In this document: positions 9,534-14,204 of the stretch, piece by piece
How the letters are laid out: the number at the start of each line of letters is the position of its first letter
How positions within the stretch are numbered: position 1 is the stretch's first letter
NCBI RefSeq assembly: GCF_001294575.1
Contig: NZ_CP012676.1
Coordinates: 3,548,001 to 3,612,000 of the forward strand
Origin: Pseudomonas versuta
Lineage (GTDB): Bacteria > Pseudomonadota > Gammaproteobacteria > Pseudomonadales > Pseudomonadaceae
Length of the DNA stretch: 64,000 bases
Direction: 5' to 3'
The notes under the pieces: model-generated
Seen by the model: only the letters and a program-made list of their open reading frames with translations
The model's database searches: none
Told to the model about the DNA's origin: nothing
Made by a program: the position numbers and the translations under genes

Positions 9534-10007
9534 ATGATCAACTCTCGCTTGTTACAACGCATGGTGGACGCGTCTCAGGACGGAATTGTGATCGCCGAAC
9601 AGGAAGGCGAAGACAACATTCTTATTTACGTGAACAAGGCATTTGAAACGCTCACCGGTTACAGCAGCGACGATATTTTGTATCAGGACTGCCGCTTTTT
9701 GCAGGCCGGTGACCGAGATCAAATCGGCCTGCAACTGGTCCGTGAAGCCATTGCCAGCGGCCAACCTACCCGCCAGGTACTGCGCAATTATCGAAAGGAC
9801 GGCTCGCACTTCTGGAACGAACTGTCGATCACCCCCGTGTTTAACGAGAACGATCAACTCACCTACTTTATCGGTGTGCAAAAGGATGTCACTGCCCAGG
9901 TGAAGGCCCAGCAACGGGTTGCTCAGCTGGAGGCCGAGCTGGCCGAGGTGAAGGCCGAACTGCAGGCGTACAAGGCGACGAACGGATCTAACAAATCGTG
10001 TAAATAA
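9534..10007 (+). CDS. Short LOV-domain blue-light photoreceptor
   Basis: 157 aa PAS/LOV protein. The flavin-adduct motif is YQDCRFLQAGDRDQ, with the photoactive cysteine at position 53, in the same place as in P. putida short LOV proteins (PpSB1-LOV), which it closely resembles from memory. LRNYRKDGSHFWNELSITPV and YFIGVQKDVT complete the PAS core. A C-terminal coiled-coil helix (AQQRVAQLEAELAEVKAELQ) extends beyond the core with no attached enzymatic domain. Such proteins signal by dimer rearrangement and protein contact. A PilZ-like gene follows on the same strand after 52 bases, and a LitR-type regulator lies beyond it. Confidence 0.93.
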   Translation: MINSRLLQRMVDASQDGIVIAEQEGEDNILIYVNKAFETLTGYSSDDILYQDCRFLQAGDRDQIGLQLVREAIASGQPTRQVLRNYRKDGSHFWNELSITPVFNENDQLTYFIGVQKDVTAQVKAQQRVAQLEAELAEVKAELQAYKATNGSNKSCK

Positions 10008-10059
10008 AGGTCTTACATTGGCTTGAAAGAATTTGTAACCCTAATTTACGAGCCAGATA

Positions 10060-10665
10060 ATGTCGTACGAGACCCTTCTGACTCAGGACGAGTTGGATTT
10101 TATCCAGTCGTTGCATGAAAGCCCGCTGCTCAATCAGCGGGAGACGTCATCGAGCCTTACGGTTAAAGGTGTCTCACAAATACGCGATCTGCTGACACGC
10201 CTGGCAGCACATGAGCAAGTCACGATTCAGGCGCACTTTGCCGACCAGAAAATGAGTTTTCCGCTGAGTCTGGTAGAAGACGAATTTCATACCCAGCATC
10301 TGCAGCTGGGAGCGCCCAGCATTTTTGAAGACGGCCCGCTTGGCCGCCCCTGGCGTTTGACCCTGGAAGAACCGGTGGCGCTGGAGAATATTCGGGCAAG
10401 GCCGGGCAATCTGTGGATTACCGAGGTGTCCTTCAAGGGCCTGCTGATCGAGGTGCGGAACGAAGGCCGCCCGCCGCGTCAATTTGCGCAATGGTTCAGC
10501 CCTGTTGGCTATGAGCGGATTGCGGTGCGCGGCACGCTGGAGCGTAAAACCGAATCAGGGCTGTATGCCTACCGGCTGAGCCAAAGCGATAAAGGCGAAA
10601 CCGAACGTTTGCGCCAATTCATCCTGCAACAACATCGCCTGACACATCCCGCCCTGCACGCTTGA
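10060..10665 (+). CDS. Conserved hypothetical protein, PilZ-like
   Basis: 201 aa cytoplasmic protein with no signal peptide or membrane segment. The C-terminal half looks like a divergent PilZ beta-barrel: LWITEVSFKGLLIEV resembles the D/NxSxxG strand, and YAYRLSQSDKGETERLRQFI resembles the end of the domain. The usual RxxxR c-di-GMP switch is not obvious (only ARPGN precedes it), so nucleotide binding is doubtful. It follows the LOV gene by 52 bases and may be co-transcribed. It ends 6 bases from the convergent litR gene. The function is not established. Confidence 0.7.
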   Translation: MSYETLLTQDELDFIQSLHESPLLNQRETSSSLTVKGVSQIRDLLTRLAAHEQVTIQAHFADQKMSFPLSLVEDEFHTQHLQLGAPSIFEDGPLGRPWRLTLEEPVALENIRARPGNLWITEVSFKGLLIEVRNEGRPPRQFAQWFSPVGYERIAVRGTLERKTESGLYAYRLSQSDKGETERLRQFILQQHRLTHPALHA

Positions 10666-10671
10666 TACCAC

Positions 10672-11613
10672 TCAGCTATCGCGATGGCCCAGGAGCTCGG
10701 CATCCAGACGCTGACTCACCTCCAGAGCTTCGCGCCCCAAACAGACAATCGATGTGCCCTTCAGCGCCTCTTGCGCCATGGATTGGGTTTGCCCCGCCAA
10801 AAACGTCGGGCAGTTCAGGGTCGGCACCAGCCGCACAAGTCGCCGATGGTGCGCGGCTGCCAGAGTACGCTGAGCAAACAGCACAACCGCTGTGGGCCGG
10901 ACCTTCTCGCAAATCAGCGCAAGCTCATCCAGAGGCTGTGCTGTGGGCAACACCCTGACCACCCGGTCGTGGCGGCTCAGGAGCAGGCCGGCAACCAGCA
11001 GCTCCAGCTCATGACACAACTCCGGCACCGCGACCATTAACACACACTGTGACGCCTGTGCTGCCTGCATCTGCAGACGGTGCTGGACCCGCGTGCGCAA
11101 GAACCCGTCCAGCAACAACCATTCACTGGTGCGGCCGAACTCATCCCGCGACCTGAACAACTGTTGATACAGCGGCAGGAAGATGTCGTGGAATACGGTT
11201 TCTGCCGGGTAACCGGAATAAATCTGCCCGTACAGGCGGTCCAGCTCAGGCTCGTTGAATGTACTCAGGGCCGCCCCTACCCGGGACTGCCACTCGCTGT
11301 GTTCAGTGGCAGCAGGTTGCGGGCGGTTATGTGCAGAGTCATTGGCGAGTAACTGCGCGACCTTGCTGACCGCAACTCCCCGCTCAAGCCAGCCCATGAC
11401 CCGGCGCACTGTCTCAATATCGGTCACTGAGTACAGGCGATGCCCACTTATGGTGCGTATTGGCTGAATCAAGCCGTAGCGCCGCTCCCAGGCGCGCAGG
11501 GTCACCGGGTTGATGCCTGTGAGCCGGGCGACTTCCCTGATCGGATACAAGCCTTGCGACTCAGGGCAATCGGCAGACAACGCTACGGGCTCAAGTTCAG
11601 TAATCACGGGCAT
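10672..11613 (-). CDS. LitR/CarH-family MerR transcriptional regulator
   Basis: 313 aa from ATG 11613; an upstream ATG at 11658 would give 328 aa, and neither has a clear ribosome site. The MerR DNA-binding domain (YPIREVARLTGINPVTLRAWERR followed by GHRLYSVTDI) is the LitR/CarH variety. The C-terminal half keeps the helical bundle plus Rossmann-like B12-domain framework. However, the cobalamin motif is degenerate: PELCHELELL stands where ExHxxG-type residues are expected. That fits class II LitR (PplR of P. putida), whose light response comes through a short LOV protein, and such a protein is encoded here two genes away. Confidence 0.85.
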   Translation of the reverse strand: MPVITELEPVALSADCPESQGLYPIREVARLTGINPVTLRAWERRYGLIQPIRTISGHRLYSVTDIETVRRVMGWLERGVAVSKVAQLLANDSAHNRPQPAATEHSEWQSRVGAALSTFNEPELDRLYGQIYSGYPAETVFHDIFLPLYQQLFRSRDEFGRTSEWLLLDGFLRTRVQHRLQMQAAQASQCVLMVAVPELCHELELLVAGLLLSRHDRVVRVLPTAQPLDELALICEKVRPTAVVLFAQRTLAAAHHRRLVRLVPTLNCPTFLAGQTQSMAQEALKGTSIVCLGREALEVSQRLDAELLGHRDS

Positions 11614-11702
11614 CGGAGGGCAAGGACCAAGAGGATATAGGGGGATTCTACGCCTCATAGCGTCATCTGGTGCTCAAACAGGAGCCGGGATTTTCACAAT
11701 CA

Positions 11703-11732
11703 ATTGTCGGAGCCGGCCTGCCGGCGATGCAA
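11703..11732. repeat. REP-like repeat
   Basis: TTGTCGGAGCCGGCCTGCCGGCGATGC-type element with an internal CCGGC/GCCGG inverted repeat. It lies in the litR/monooxygenase-domain gene gap and may complicate promoter reading there. Confidence 0.55.
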
Positions 11733-11864
11733 ACGGCCGGATTGCGTAGAGACTGGCGCAAGGAGGAACAATCCTTGCTTGTTTTTCAGAACACGGCCCA
11801 CCACCCCGGCGCTGCGTTTTGTGACTGCCCTACCCGGGCAGCATTAGCCTTATGGAGATACACA

Positions 11865-12431
11865 ATGTCTACCTCCCCTGTCACCTTGCTGGTTGCGCGT
11901 CGCGTCGCTGACGGCCGCTATCAGGAACTGATCGCCTGGCTGCATGAAGGCGAGCAATTGGCCACCGACTTCCCCGGTTATCTGGGTTCAGGCGTACTGG
12001 CCCCGCCTGCGGGCGATGATGAGTTTCAGATTATTTTCCGCTTTGCCGACGAAACCACCCTCCACGCATGGGAACACTCGGTGTCGCGCAAGTCATGGTT
12101 ACTGCGCGGCAGTGACTTGTTTGCCCATCCTTCAGAGCGACGTGTCAGTGGCATCGATGGCTGGTTCGGTGCCGGCGGGCAGCGCCCGCCACGCTGGAAG
12201 CAAGCGGTGGCCATCTGGCTGGCATTCTTCCCGGTGTCGCTGTTGTTCAATTTTGTGCTGGGCCCGCTGCTTGGCGAGTTGAGCCTGCTGCCGCGAATAT
12301 TTGTCAGCACCCTGGCCCTGACCCCGCTGATGGTTTTCTGGTTTATTCCGCTCTCGACTCATTTGCTGGCCGGCTGGCTTCACAGCCTCCCGGACAAACC
12401 TTTGGGCGGCACAATCGCCCAGCGCCACTAA
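11865..12431 (+). CDS. Antibiotic biosynthesis monooxygenase-domain membrane protein
   Basis: 188 aa. The N-terminal ferredoxin-like ABM domain (TLLVARRVADGRYQELIAWLH through FRFADETTLHAWEHS) spans residues 6-75. Two membrane segments follow in the C-terminal half (VAIWLAFFPVSLLFNFVLG and FVSTLALTPLMVFWFIPLS). The start ATG 11865 has a GGAG ribosome site; the open frame further upstream crosses a REP-like element and is rejected. It is divergent from litR and leads into folM after 94 bases. No enzymatic activity is known for this membrane-anchored ABM type. Confidence 0.82.
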   Translation: MSTSPVTLLVARRVADGRYQELIAWLHEGEQLATDFPGYLGSGVLAPPAGDDEFQIIFRFADETTLHAWEHSVSRKSWLLRGSDLFAHPSERRVSGIDGWFGAGGQRPPRWKQAVAIWLAFFPVSLLFNFVLGPLLGELSLLPRIFVSTLALTPLMVFWFIPLSTHLLAGWLHSLPDKPLGGTIAQRH

Positions 12432-12525
12432 ACCCCGACTCGGGTTTGGCCGTTACGTCGCGGACGCTGGTATAGTTTTGCCATTACGCCGCGACTGTTT
12501 CCGACCTTACTCCACCGAGTCCGCC

Positions 12526-13236
12526 ATGCCCTCTCCTTCTGCACCGATTCTGATCACTGGCGCCGGCCAGCGCATTGGTTTGCATTGCGCCAGGCAATTG
12601 CTGGCCGATGGGCATGCCGTAATCATCAGCTACCGCAGTGAAAAACCCGGGGTGCAAGCCTTGCGCGAACTGGGTGCGACGACACTGTTTGCCGACTTCT
12701 CAAACGAAGACGGTATTCTCGACTTTATCCAGCGCCTCAAAAACCATACTGATTCGTTGCGGGCCATTGTCCACAACGCCTCGGCCTGGCTTGCCGAGAC
12801 TGCAGACACCGGCACCTGTGCATTCACACAAATGTTCAGTGTGCACATGCTGGCGCCGTACTTGATCAATCTGCATTGTGCCCAGTTGCTGGAGCGTTCA
12901 ACGCCGGCGGACATCATTCATATCAGCGACGATGTCACGCGCAAGGGCAGCAGCAAGCATATTGCTTATTGCGCAACCAAGGCCGGGCTCGACAGCCTGA
13001 CCCTGTCATTCGCCGCTAAACTGGCGCCACGCATCAAGGTCAACGGCATTGCCCCGGCCTTGCTGATGTTCAACCCCGACGACGACGCGGCGTACCGCGC
13101 CAAAACCCTGGCCAAGTCAGCAATGGGGATAGAGCCCGGCGCCGAGGTCATTTATCAGAGCCTGCGCTACCTGCTGGACAACCCGTATGTGACCGGCACA
13201 ACCTTGACCGTCAATGGCGGCCGGCATCTCAAATAG
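12526..13236 (+). CDS. folM: Dihydromonapterin reductase
   Basis: 236 aa short-chain dehydrogenase/reductase. It shows the nucleotide-binding start ILITGAGQRIGLHCARQLL (residues 8-26), the VHNAS turn, the active-site Tyr/Lys in KHIAYCATKAGLDSL, and the C-terminal NGGRHLK. FolM reduces dihydromonapterin to tetrahydromonapterin using NADPH. In Pseudomonas this pterin is the cofactor of phenylalanine hydroxylase. It is followed after 21 bases by folE and folX, the other enzymes of the same route. The start at ATG 12526 fits the SDR N-terminus. Confidence 0.92.
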   Translation: MPSPSAPILITGAGQRIGLHCARQLLADGHAVIISYRSEKPGVQALRELGATTLFADFSNEDGILDFIQRLKNHTDSLRAIVHNASAWLAETADTGTCAFTQMFSVHMLAPYLINLHCAQLLERSTPADIIHISDDVTRKGSSKHIAYCATKAGLDSLTLSFAAKLAPRIKVNGIAPALLMFNPDDDAAYRAKTLAKSAMGIEPGAEVIYQSLRYLLDNPYVTGTTLTVNGGRHLK

Positions 13237-13257
13237 CCGTCCCCGAGGAAGTACTTC

Positions 13258-13818
13258 ATGAGCGCAACACTGCCTGAGCAATATCGCGAGATCCTCATAG
13301 GTCTGGGTGAAAACCCCGACCGCGAAGGCTTGCTCGACACCCCCAAACGCGCAGCCAAAGCCATGCAGTATCTGTGTCATGGTTACGAACAAAGCGTTGA
13401 AACCATCGTCAATGGCGCCCTGTTTGCCTCGGACAGCGATGAAATGGTGATCGTCTCCGACATCGAGCTGTACTCACTGTGCGAGCATCACCTGCTGCCG
13501 TTTATTGGCAAGGCACATGTCGCGTATATCCCGACCGGCAAAGTGCTGGGCCTGTCGAAGATTGCCCGTATCGTCGACATGTTTGCCCGCCGCCTGCAAA
13601 TCCAGGAAAACCTCACCCGGGAAATCGCCGATGCCATTCAAGGCATTACCCAAGCCGCCGGCGTGGCCGTAGTGATTGAAGCCAGGCACATGTGCATGAT
13701 GATGCGCGGCGTTGAAAAACAGAACTCGACCATGAACACCTCGGTCATGCTGGGCGCGTTTCGCGAACCAAGCACCCGCATGGAGTTCCTGCAATTGATA
13801 GGACGGAGCAAGTCTTAA
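13258..13818 (+). CDS. folE: GTP cyclohydrolase I
   Basis: 186 aa enzyme that converts GTP to 7,8-dihydroneopterin triphosphate, the entry to folate and pterin synthesis. The zinc ligands are present as C75 and H78 (LCEHHLLPF) and C146 ([12 protein letters not shown]). The N-terminal [15 protein letters not shown] is canonical. It forms an operon with folM and folX; the folX start overlaps its stop (TAATG). Pseudomonas often has a second folE elsewhere, so this copy may be dedicated to monapterin. Confidence 0.96.
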
Positions 13819-14204
13819 TGCCACAACTTCAGCCAGGAATGGCCCGCATTCGCGTCAAAGACCTGTGTCTGCGCACATACATCGGGATCAATGAGGAAGA
13901 AATCCTCAACAAGCAGGATGTACTGATCAACCTCACCATCCTGTATGCCGCCCAAAAAGCCGTGCGTGACAACGATATCGATCACGCCCTCAATTACCGG
14001 ACCATCACCAAGGCGGTGATCCAGCACGTCGAAGAAAACCGCTTCGCCCTGCTTGAGCGCCTGACCCAGGAACTGCTGGATCTGGTAATGGCCAATGGCG
14101 CCGTGCTGTACGCCGAAGTCGAAGTCGACAAGCCGCACGCACTGCGCTTTGCCGAATCGGTTTCGATTACGCTGGCGGCAAGCCGCCAGGCTCCCACCCT
14201 TTGA
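13818..14204 (+). CDS. folX: Dihydroneopterin triphosphate 2'-epimerase
   Basis: 128 aa tunnel-fold enzyme related to dihydroneopterin aldolase FolB. It epimerises dihydroneopterin triphosphate to the monapterin form. Motifs [26 protein letters not shown] and [17 protein letters not shown] are typical. FolX rather than FolB is preferred because of the SVSITLA end and because it sits between folE and the DUF1244 gene beside folM. Its ATG shares one base with the folE stop. Confidence 0.93.

Follow-up and report, generated by a model that had tools for sequence, protein, structure and literature searches.

A probable short-LOV/class II LitR blue-light switch in Pseudomonas versuta, its PilZ-fold neighbour and its likely target operon

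Genes and proteins of the locus

The window analysed here is a stretch of 64,000 nucleotides from a 5.15-Mb chromosome of Pseudomonas versuta. A first-pass annotation, made from the letters alone, had described a blue-light sensing module in it, and the LOV, PilZ-like, LitR, ABM-like and folM-folE-folX genes were all confirmed at the positions it gave. The genes are ordered flavodoxin (minus strand), short LOV (plus), PilZ-like (plus), LitR (minus), ABM-like (plus), folM, folE, folX, DUF1244 and HopJ, and the features that concern us are the following.

9534..10007, plus strand: short LOV blue-light receptor of 157 aa with Cys53 and no output domain
10060..10665, plus strand: protein of 201 aa with a PilZ fold in a predicted model and a degenerate c-di-GMP motif (GRPWR, EVSFKG); a resident neighbour
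10672..11658, minus strand: class II LitR (LitR2/3-type) MerR regulator in a 328-aa frame, with an N-terminal HTH (MerR_1, PF13411, E=4e-15)
11865..12431, plus strand: ABM-like domain gene, divergent from LitR, with a C-terminal part that is hydrophobic as judged by eye
12451..12480, plus strand: eroded folM operator, with the GGTATAGTTTTG half retained and the TGTACA half lost (4 mismatches)
12523..13236, plus strand: folM, dihydromonapterin reductase (NCBIfam PRK06483, 360 bits)
13258..13818, plus strand: folE, GTP cyclohydrolase I (Pfam and NCBIfam searches)
13818..14204, plus strand: folX, dihydroneopterin triphosphate 2'-epimerase (NCBIfam PRK11245, 194.6 bits)

The LOV and PilZ-like genes are co-directional with a gap of 52 bp, and the PilZ-like and LitR genes are convergent and separated by 6 bp. 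Among the 80 loci from other genomes that rank highest of 433 in similarity of the PilZ-like protein, 66 have the same order from flavodoxin to folX, so the arrangement does not reflect chance. The ABM-like gene likely starts at the ATG at 11865; its ABM domain is a weak match, under the Pfam cut-off (E=3.4e-4). We do not claim a promoter between the LOV and PilZ-like genes, as a scan gave one weak sigma-70-like site (10033-10061) and the sequences upstream of the PilZ-like gene differ among relatives.

The product of the first of these genes is a short LOV protein by its sequence, as the first-pass annotation had it: it has a LOV core with the photoactive Cys53 in YQDCRFLQ, it has no effector domain, and the only Pfam families that it matches above cut-off are PAS families (PAS_9, E=8e-22). 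It matches the YtvA_fam model at residues 6-139 with 154 bits, where the cut-off of the full-length model is 250, and its closest solved relative, at E=2.6e-76, is the 172-residue chain 7r5n_A, named a 'sensory box protein'.

The LitR protein has a MerR-type HTH at its N terminus, and the operator TRTACA-N12-TGTAYA lies ahead of the photolyase operon of this genome; both properties are those of class II LitR regulators. Its annotated frame may begin 15 codons too early, with Met16 at 11613 as the start, because the alignments of most relatives begin at residue 13 or beyond (those of two, G116 and G106, begin at residue 3). The cobalamin motif is indeed degenerate, as had been proposed: the alignment with CarH shows that PELCHELELL conserves the motif His and replaces the Gly by Glu, that the Trp of the four-helix segment is aligned to a gap, and that the next His is a Trp. 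These Trp, His and Gly positions are presumably the cobalamin-related ones of CarH. Pfam rows for a B12-binding domain were absent at E<=0.1. The regulator thus appears to have no working cobalamin-binding domain and to diverge at the AdoCbl ligand residues of class I. It shares its MerR HTH and general architecture with the class I CarH/LitR of T. thermophilus (5c8d, 3whp; E=6e-21), but the cobalamin ligand positions are largely unconserved, and light would be sensed by the separate LOV protein.

The protein encoded between LOV and LitR has no Pfam or NCBIfam assignment (a single Pfam row, DUF6459, is sub-threshold at E=0.016), and a PDB sequence search with it gave no matches at E<=10, while PF07238 was found in some of its homologues. 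A predicted model places a PilZ beta-barrel at about residues 93-201, next to a further N-terminal domain, which points to a PilZ fold. This barrel is common to YcgR (5y6f) and MotI/DgrA (5vx6), but the two-domain superposition on these proteins is poor (TM 0.30-0.42). Furthermore, the motifs RxxxR and [DN]xSxxG of c-di-GMP-binding PilZ domains are replaced by RxxR and ExSxxG. With a simple pattern, both motifs are found together in 0 of the 72 rows of A2 and in 2 of the 23 rows of A1. The closest named relative among the matches listed, which possibly do not include the protein's own genome, is from P. paraversuta (89%), to which the strain is probably closely related; the relatives of the locus are Pseudomonas.

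A literature search on LitR, LOV and PilZ in Pseudomonas gave no paper whose title or opening abstract lines concerned this locus. The same set of genes is described in P. mendocina NBRC 14162 as the PmSB-LOV/PmlR2 system, with a LOV protein carrying Cys53, PME15565, a class II LitR, a hypothetical gene and folM-folE-folX (PMC9758184). In that system, PmSB-LOV in its lit state attaches to PmlR2 at the N-terminal domain and so keeps the regulator from binding DNA, for which Cys53 of the LOV protein is required, and the arrangement pmlR2-PME15565-pmSB-LOV is stated to be conserved in Pseudomonas (PMC9758184). From its place, we infer that PME15565 is the PilZ-like gene; PilZ is unmentioned in the main text of PMC9758184. 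P. putida KT2440 likewise combines short LOV proteins with class II LitR and the operator TRTACA-N12-TGTAYA, as reported in PMC9758184, but it has two LOV proteins (PpSB1-LOV and PpSB2-LOV) and three LitR proteins (PplR1-3), against one LOV and two LitR here. The copy numbers for P. versuta come from searches of its genome at E<=1e-15 for the short LOV and E<=1e-8 for LitR. The short LOV and PplR genes of KT2440 are, we assume, adjacent.

LitR operators and candidate targets

With at most one mismatch allowed, the operator pattern has 19 sites in the genome versus 7 for a reversed control. Two perfect boxes, at G000:C1:3621310 and 3621360 and thus 50 bp apart, precede an operon about 64 kb downstream of the LOV gene and 9 kb beyond the end of the window.

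G000:C1:3619957-3628837 (L088 3958-12837): rudS-litR1-phrB-SDR-amine oxidase-CMAS-type operon region, starting 8 kb beyond the window end

The operon begins with rudS (2-thiouracil-desulfurase/DUF1722), litR1 and the DNA photolyase gene, which are followed by SDR, amine-oxidase-type and CMAS-type genes, and a box with one mismatch precedes another FAD-oxidoreductase gene in the same region. The genome has a third perfect box at G000:C1:4740050-4740073.

The pterin genes present a different picture from that in P. mendocina. There, folM is 2.4-2.5-fold light-induced with the operator TGTACA-N12-GGTATA 95 bp upstream, PmlR2 binds the folM promoter, and folE is 1.6-3.3-fold induced (PMC9758184, Table 1), so that the remark in the first-pass annotation that folE is light-induced holds for a species in which the operator is present. 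In P. versuta, by contrast, the operator is eroded. An intact folM operator was sought and rejected here, both at up to 2 mismatches and in a search anchored on GGTATA, and no LitR box at up to 2 mismatches was found at the locus. Of 37 loci, 22 have a perfect folM operator, 3 have one with a single mismatch and 12, the window included, lack it (3 or more mismatches); nine near relatives have 3-5 mismatches. In the loci of other genomes that were measured, 11 of 77 have the operator within one mismatch. The pterin genes therefore seem, judged from their upstream sequence, to have lost their LitR control site in P. versuta, and the proposed control of the pterin operon by LitR finds no support in this genome, although LitR may bind sites weaker than the consensus, in which case folM could still respond.

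As a separate observation, neither folE nor folX was found within the stretch at 18 of 60 mapped loci (L048, L050, L053-L055, L057, L060, L067, L074, L078, L083, L084, L087 and L103-L107), where the sole match to the folM query is a gene of 40-45% identity.

Co-occurrence in the genus and reading of the locus

We tallied the genes in 149 genomes of the genus, counting LOV and LitR matches only at E<=1e-50, with G034 added as LitR-present. LOV and LitR2/3 occur together in 130 genomes, LOV without LitR2/3 in 2, LitR2/3 without LOV in 0, and neither in 17. The corresponding numbers for the PilZ-like gene and LOV are 127 with both, 15 with only the PilZ-like gene, 5 with only LOV and 2 with neither. 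The PilZ-like gene is therefore retained in 15 of the 17 LOV-less genomes and missing from 5 of the 132 with LOV, and Fisher p values, which ignore kinship, are 1.8e-20 for LOV and LitR versus 0.18 for LOV and the PilZ-like gene. In G034, the LitR2/3 gene consists of two pieces in separate frames (G034:C1:1989917-1990899).

A four-marker tree of 59 loci, made by a quick method, requires at least 10 state changes for LOV, 11 for LitR2/3 and 2 for the PilZ-like gene. This sample is non-random: it includes all 15 genomes with the PilZ-like gene but no LOV and all 5 with LOV but no PilZ-like gene, and it leaves out G093 and G123, which have neither. Of the five supported independent pairs, an average of 4.8 show LitR changing together with LOV, and 0 show the PilZ-like gene doing so. 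With only five such pairs, the LOV-LitR sign test (median p 0.0625) cannot reach p 0.05. The presence of LOV is tightly linked to that of LitR2/3. Thus, the first-pass description of an accessory system in a conserved neighbourhood, whose three genes should co-occur, suits LOV and LitR, but the PilZ-like gene is decoupled from them.

We consider it likely that P. versuta carries at this locus its own version of the short-LOV/class II LitR switch known from Pseudomonas, with rudS-litR1-phrB as its main target and the PilZ-fold gene as a neighbour. In the dark, LitR would repress promoters that carry TRTACA-N12-TGTAYA; blue light would form the Cys53-flavin adduct of LOV, and the lit LOV would bind LitR and remove it from DNA. 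The main target here would be the operon behind the two perfect boxes rather than the neighbouring pterin operon. The LOV-LitR contact and derepression were found with the P. mendocina pair, and we infer the same working and target for this strain, in which the genes, boxes and distributions are observed directly. Since the P. mendocina cluster is already published (PMC9758184), the core of the switch is known, and the first-pass annotation was right to see a blue-light switch in the short LOV and class II LitR, which the tight co-occurrence also bears out. To the published switch we add that the extra gene encodes a predicted PilZ fold with no tie to the pair by present evidence, that the folM operator is eroded here, so the link to the pterin genes varies between species, and that there are genomes with rudS-litR1-phrB and no LOV.

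Three other readings deserve weighing. That LitR is itself a B12-based class I sensor, with LOV unrelated, would draw on the His retained in PELCHELE. We regard it as most improbable, given the gapped Trp, the Trp in place of the following His and the Glu in place of the motif Gly (at positions whose roles we assume), and given that LitR co-occurs with LOV. The P. putida system needs no B12, as reported in PMC9758184, which argues that class II LitR proteins do not bind it; PMC11417400 describes class II LitR as adenosyl-B12-dependent. Somewhat less improbable, yet still unlikely, is light control by LitR of the adjacent ABM-folM-folE-folX genes in this species as well. The induction and PmlR2 binding described for P. 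mendocina (PMC9758184) and the operator half retained here speak for such control. Against it stand the four mismatches of the lost TGTACA half, which fall within the 3-5 scored by loci that lack the site, the similar scores of the nine near relatives and the empty box search at the locus. In addition, the stretches retrieved for L067, L074, L078, L083 and L084, all of which have LOV and LitR2/3, yielded neither folE nor folX.

The first-pass annotation had also suggested that the PilZ-like gene could be a further partner of the pair. In a three-part module, the PilZ-like protein would link LOV and LitR with an additional output, such as motility or the envelope, so that light would act on two branches; the same strand and 52-bp gap would suit this, as would the resemblance of the domain to the PilZ domains of MotI and YcgR, both motility proteins. 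Of the 149 genomes, 114 have the three genes side by side, and LOV adjoins the PilZ-like gene in 123 of the 127 genomes with both, including 7 with LitR elsewhere and 2 without LitR2/3. The position is thus stable though the fates of the genes differ, and adjacency that outlasts the displacement or loss of LitR leaves room for a link. However, the PilZ-like gene tracks neither LOV nor LitR in the independent pairs, the Fisher tests differ as given above, and the gene persists both in most LOV-less genomes and next to deleted LOV genes. We therefore judge the three-part module improbable. The distribution and the pair counts lead us to reject an obligate third partner, despite the strong adjacency, and the PilZ-like gene looks like a long-standing neighbour of the switch, and by present evidence a bystander, without an evolutionary tie to it.

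Genomes that have lost the LOV gene

Strains that have lost LOV naturally but retain their LitR genes and operators, for example P. frederiksbergensis DM22 and Pseudomonas sp. GM18, are a ready-made test of whether class II LitR needs LOV, and the same strains bear on whether loss of the receptor locks the photolyase and tRNA-desulfidase genes off. In the best 80 of 433 loci by PilZ-like similarity, LOV is full-length and open in 65, one to a few codons shorter in 9, split between two frames in L165, and gone or a remnant in 5 (L146, L156, L169, L172 and L174). The PilZ-like and LitR genes persist in all six of the latter loci, and LitR2/3 is open in the five with LOV deleted. A search of these five genomes for a short LOV elsewhere, run without a positive control and including one 3.8-Mb metagenome assembly, gave none at E<=1e-20. 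These five named genomes, with open LitR2/3 but no LOV, imply that the LOV-LitR pair is separable. LitR1 has at least one perfect operator in all five genomes, and rudS and phrB adjoin it in three.

A further pattern is seen in 15 of the 149 genomes (L108-L122), which have the PilZ-like gene, lack short LOV and LitR2/3, and keep LitR1. At E<=1e-10, every match to the LOV query in these genomes lies in a frame of 303-1572 aa. The [ND]CRFLQ codon pattern is present in 11 of them and absent in G020, G104, G110 and G127, so that larger LOV proteins could serve in those 11. BLUF was found in none of 16 genomes (these 15 and G000), in a search whose positive control matched one of 14 named genomes, E. 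coli. Either light control of these rudS-litR1-phrB operons has been lost, leaving blind strains, or another input exists. Should light still control the operons, class II LitR would not be solely an effector of LOV and would have a second input, a possibility that we hold tentatively and consider rather doubtful. In all 15 genomes, LitR1 lies beside rudS and phrB (rudS is partly matched in L116), and the operator precedes rudS-litR1-phrB at 0-1 mismatch, being perfect in 14.
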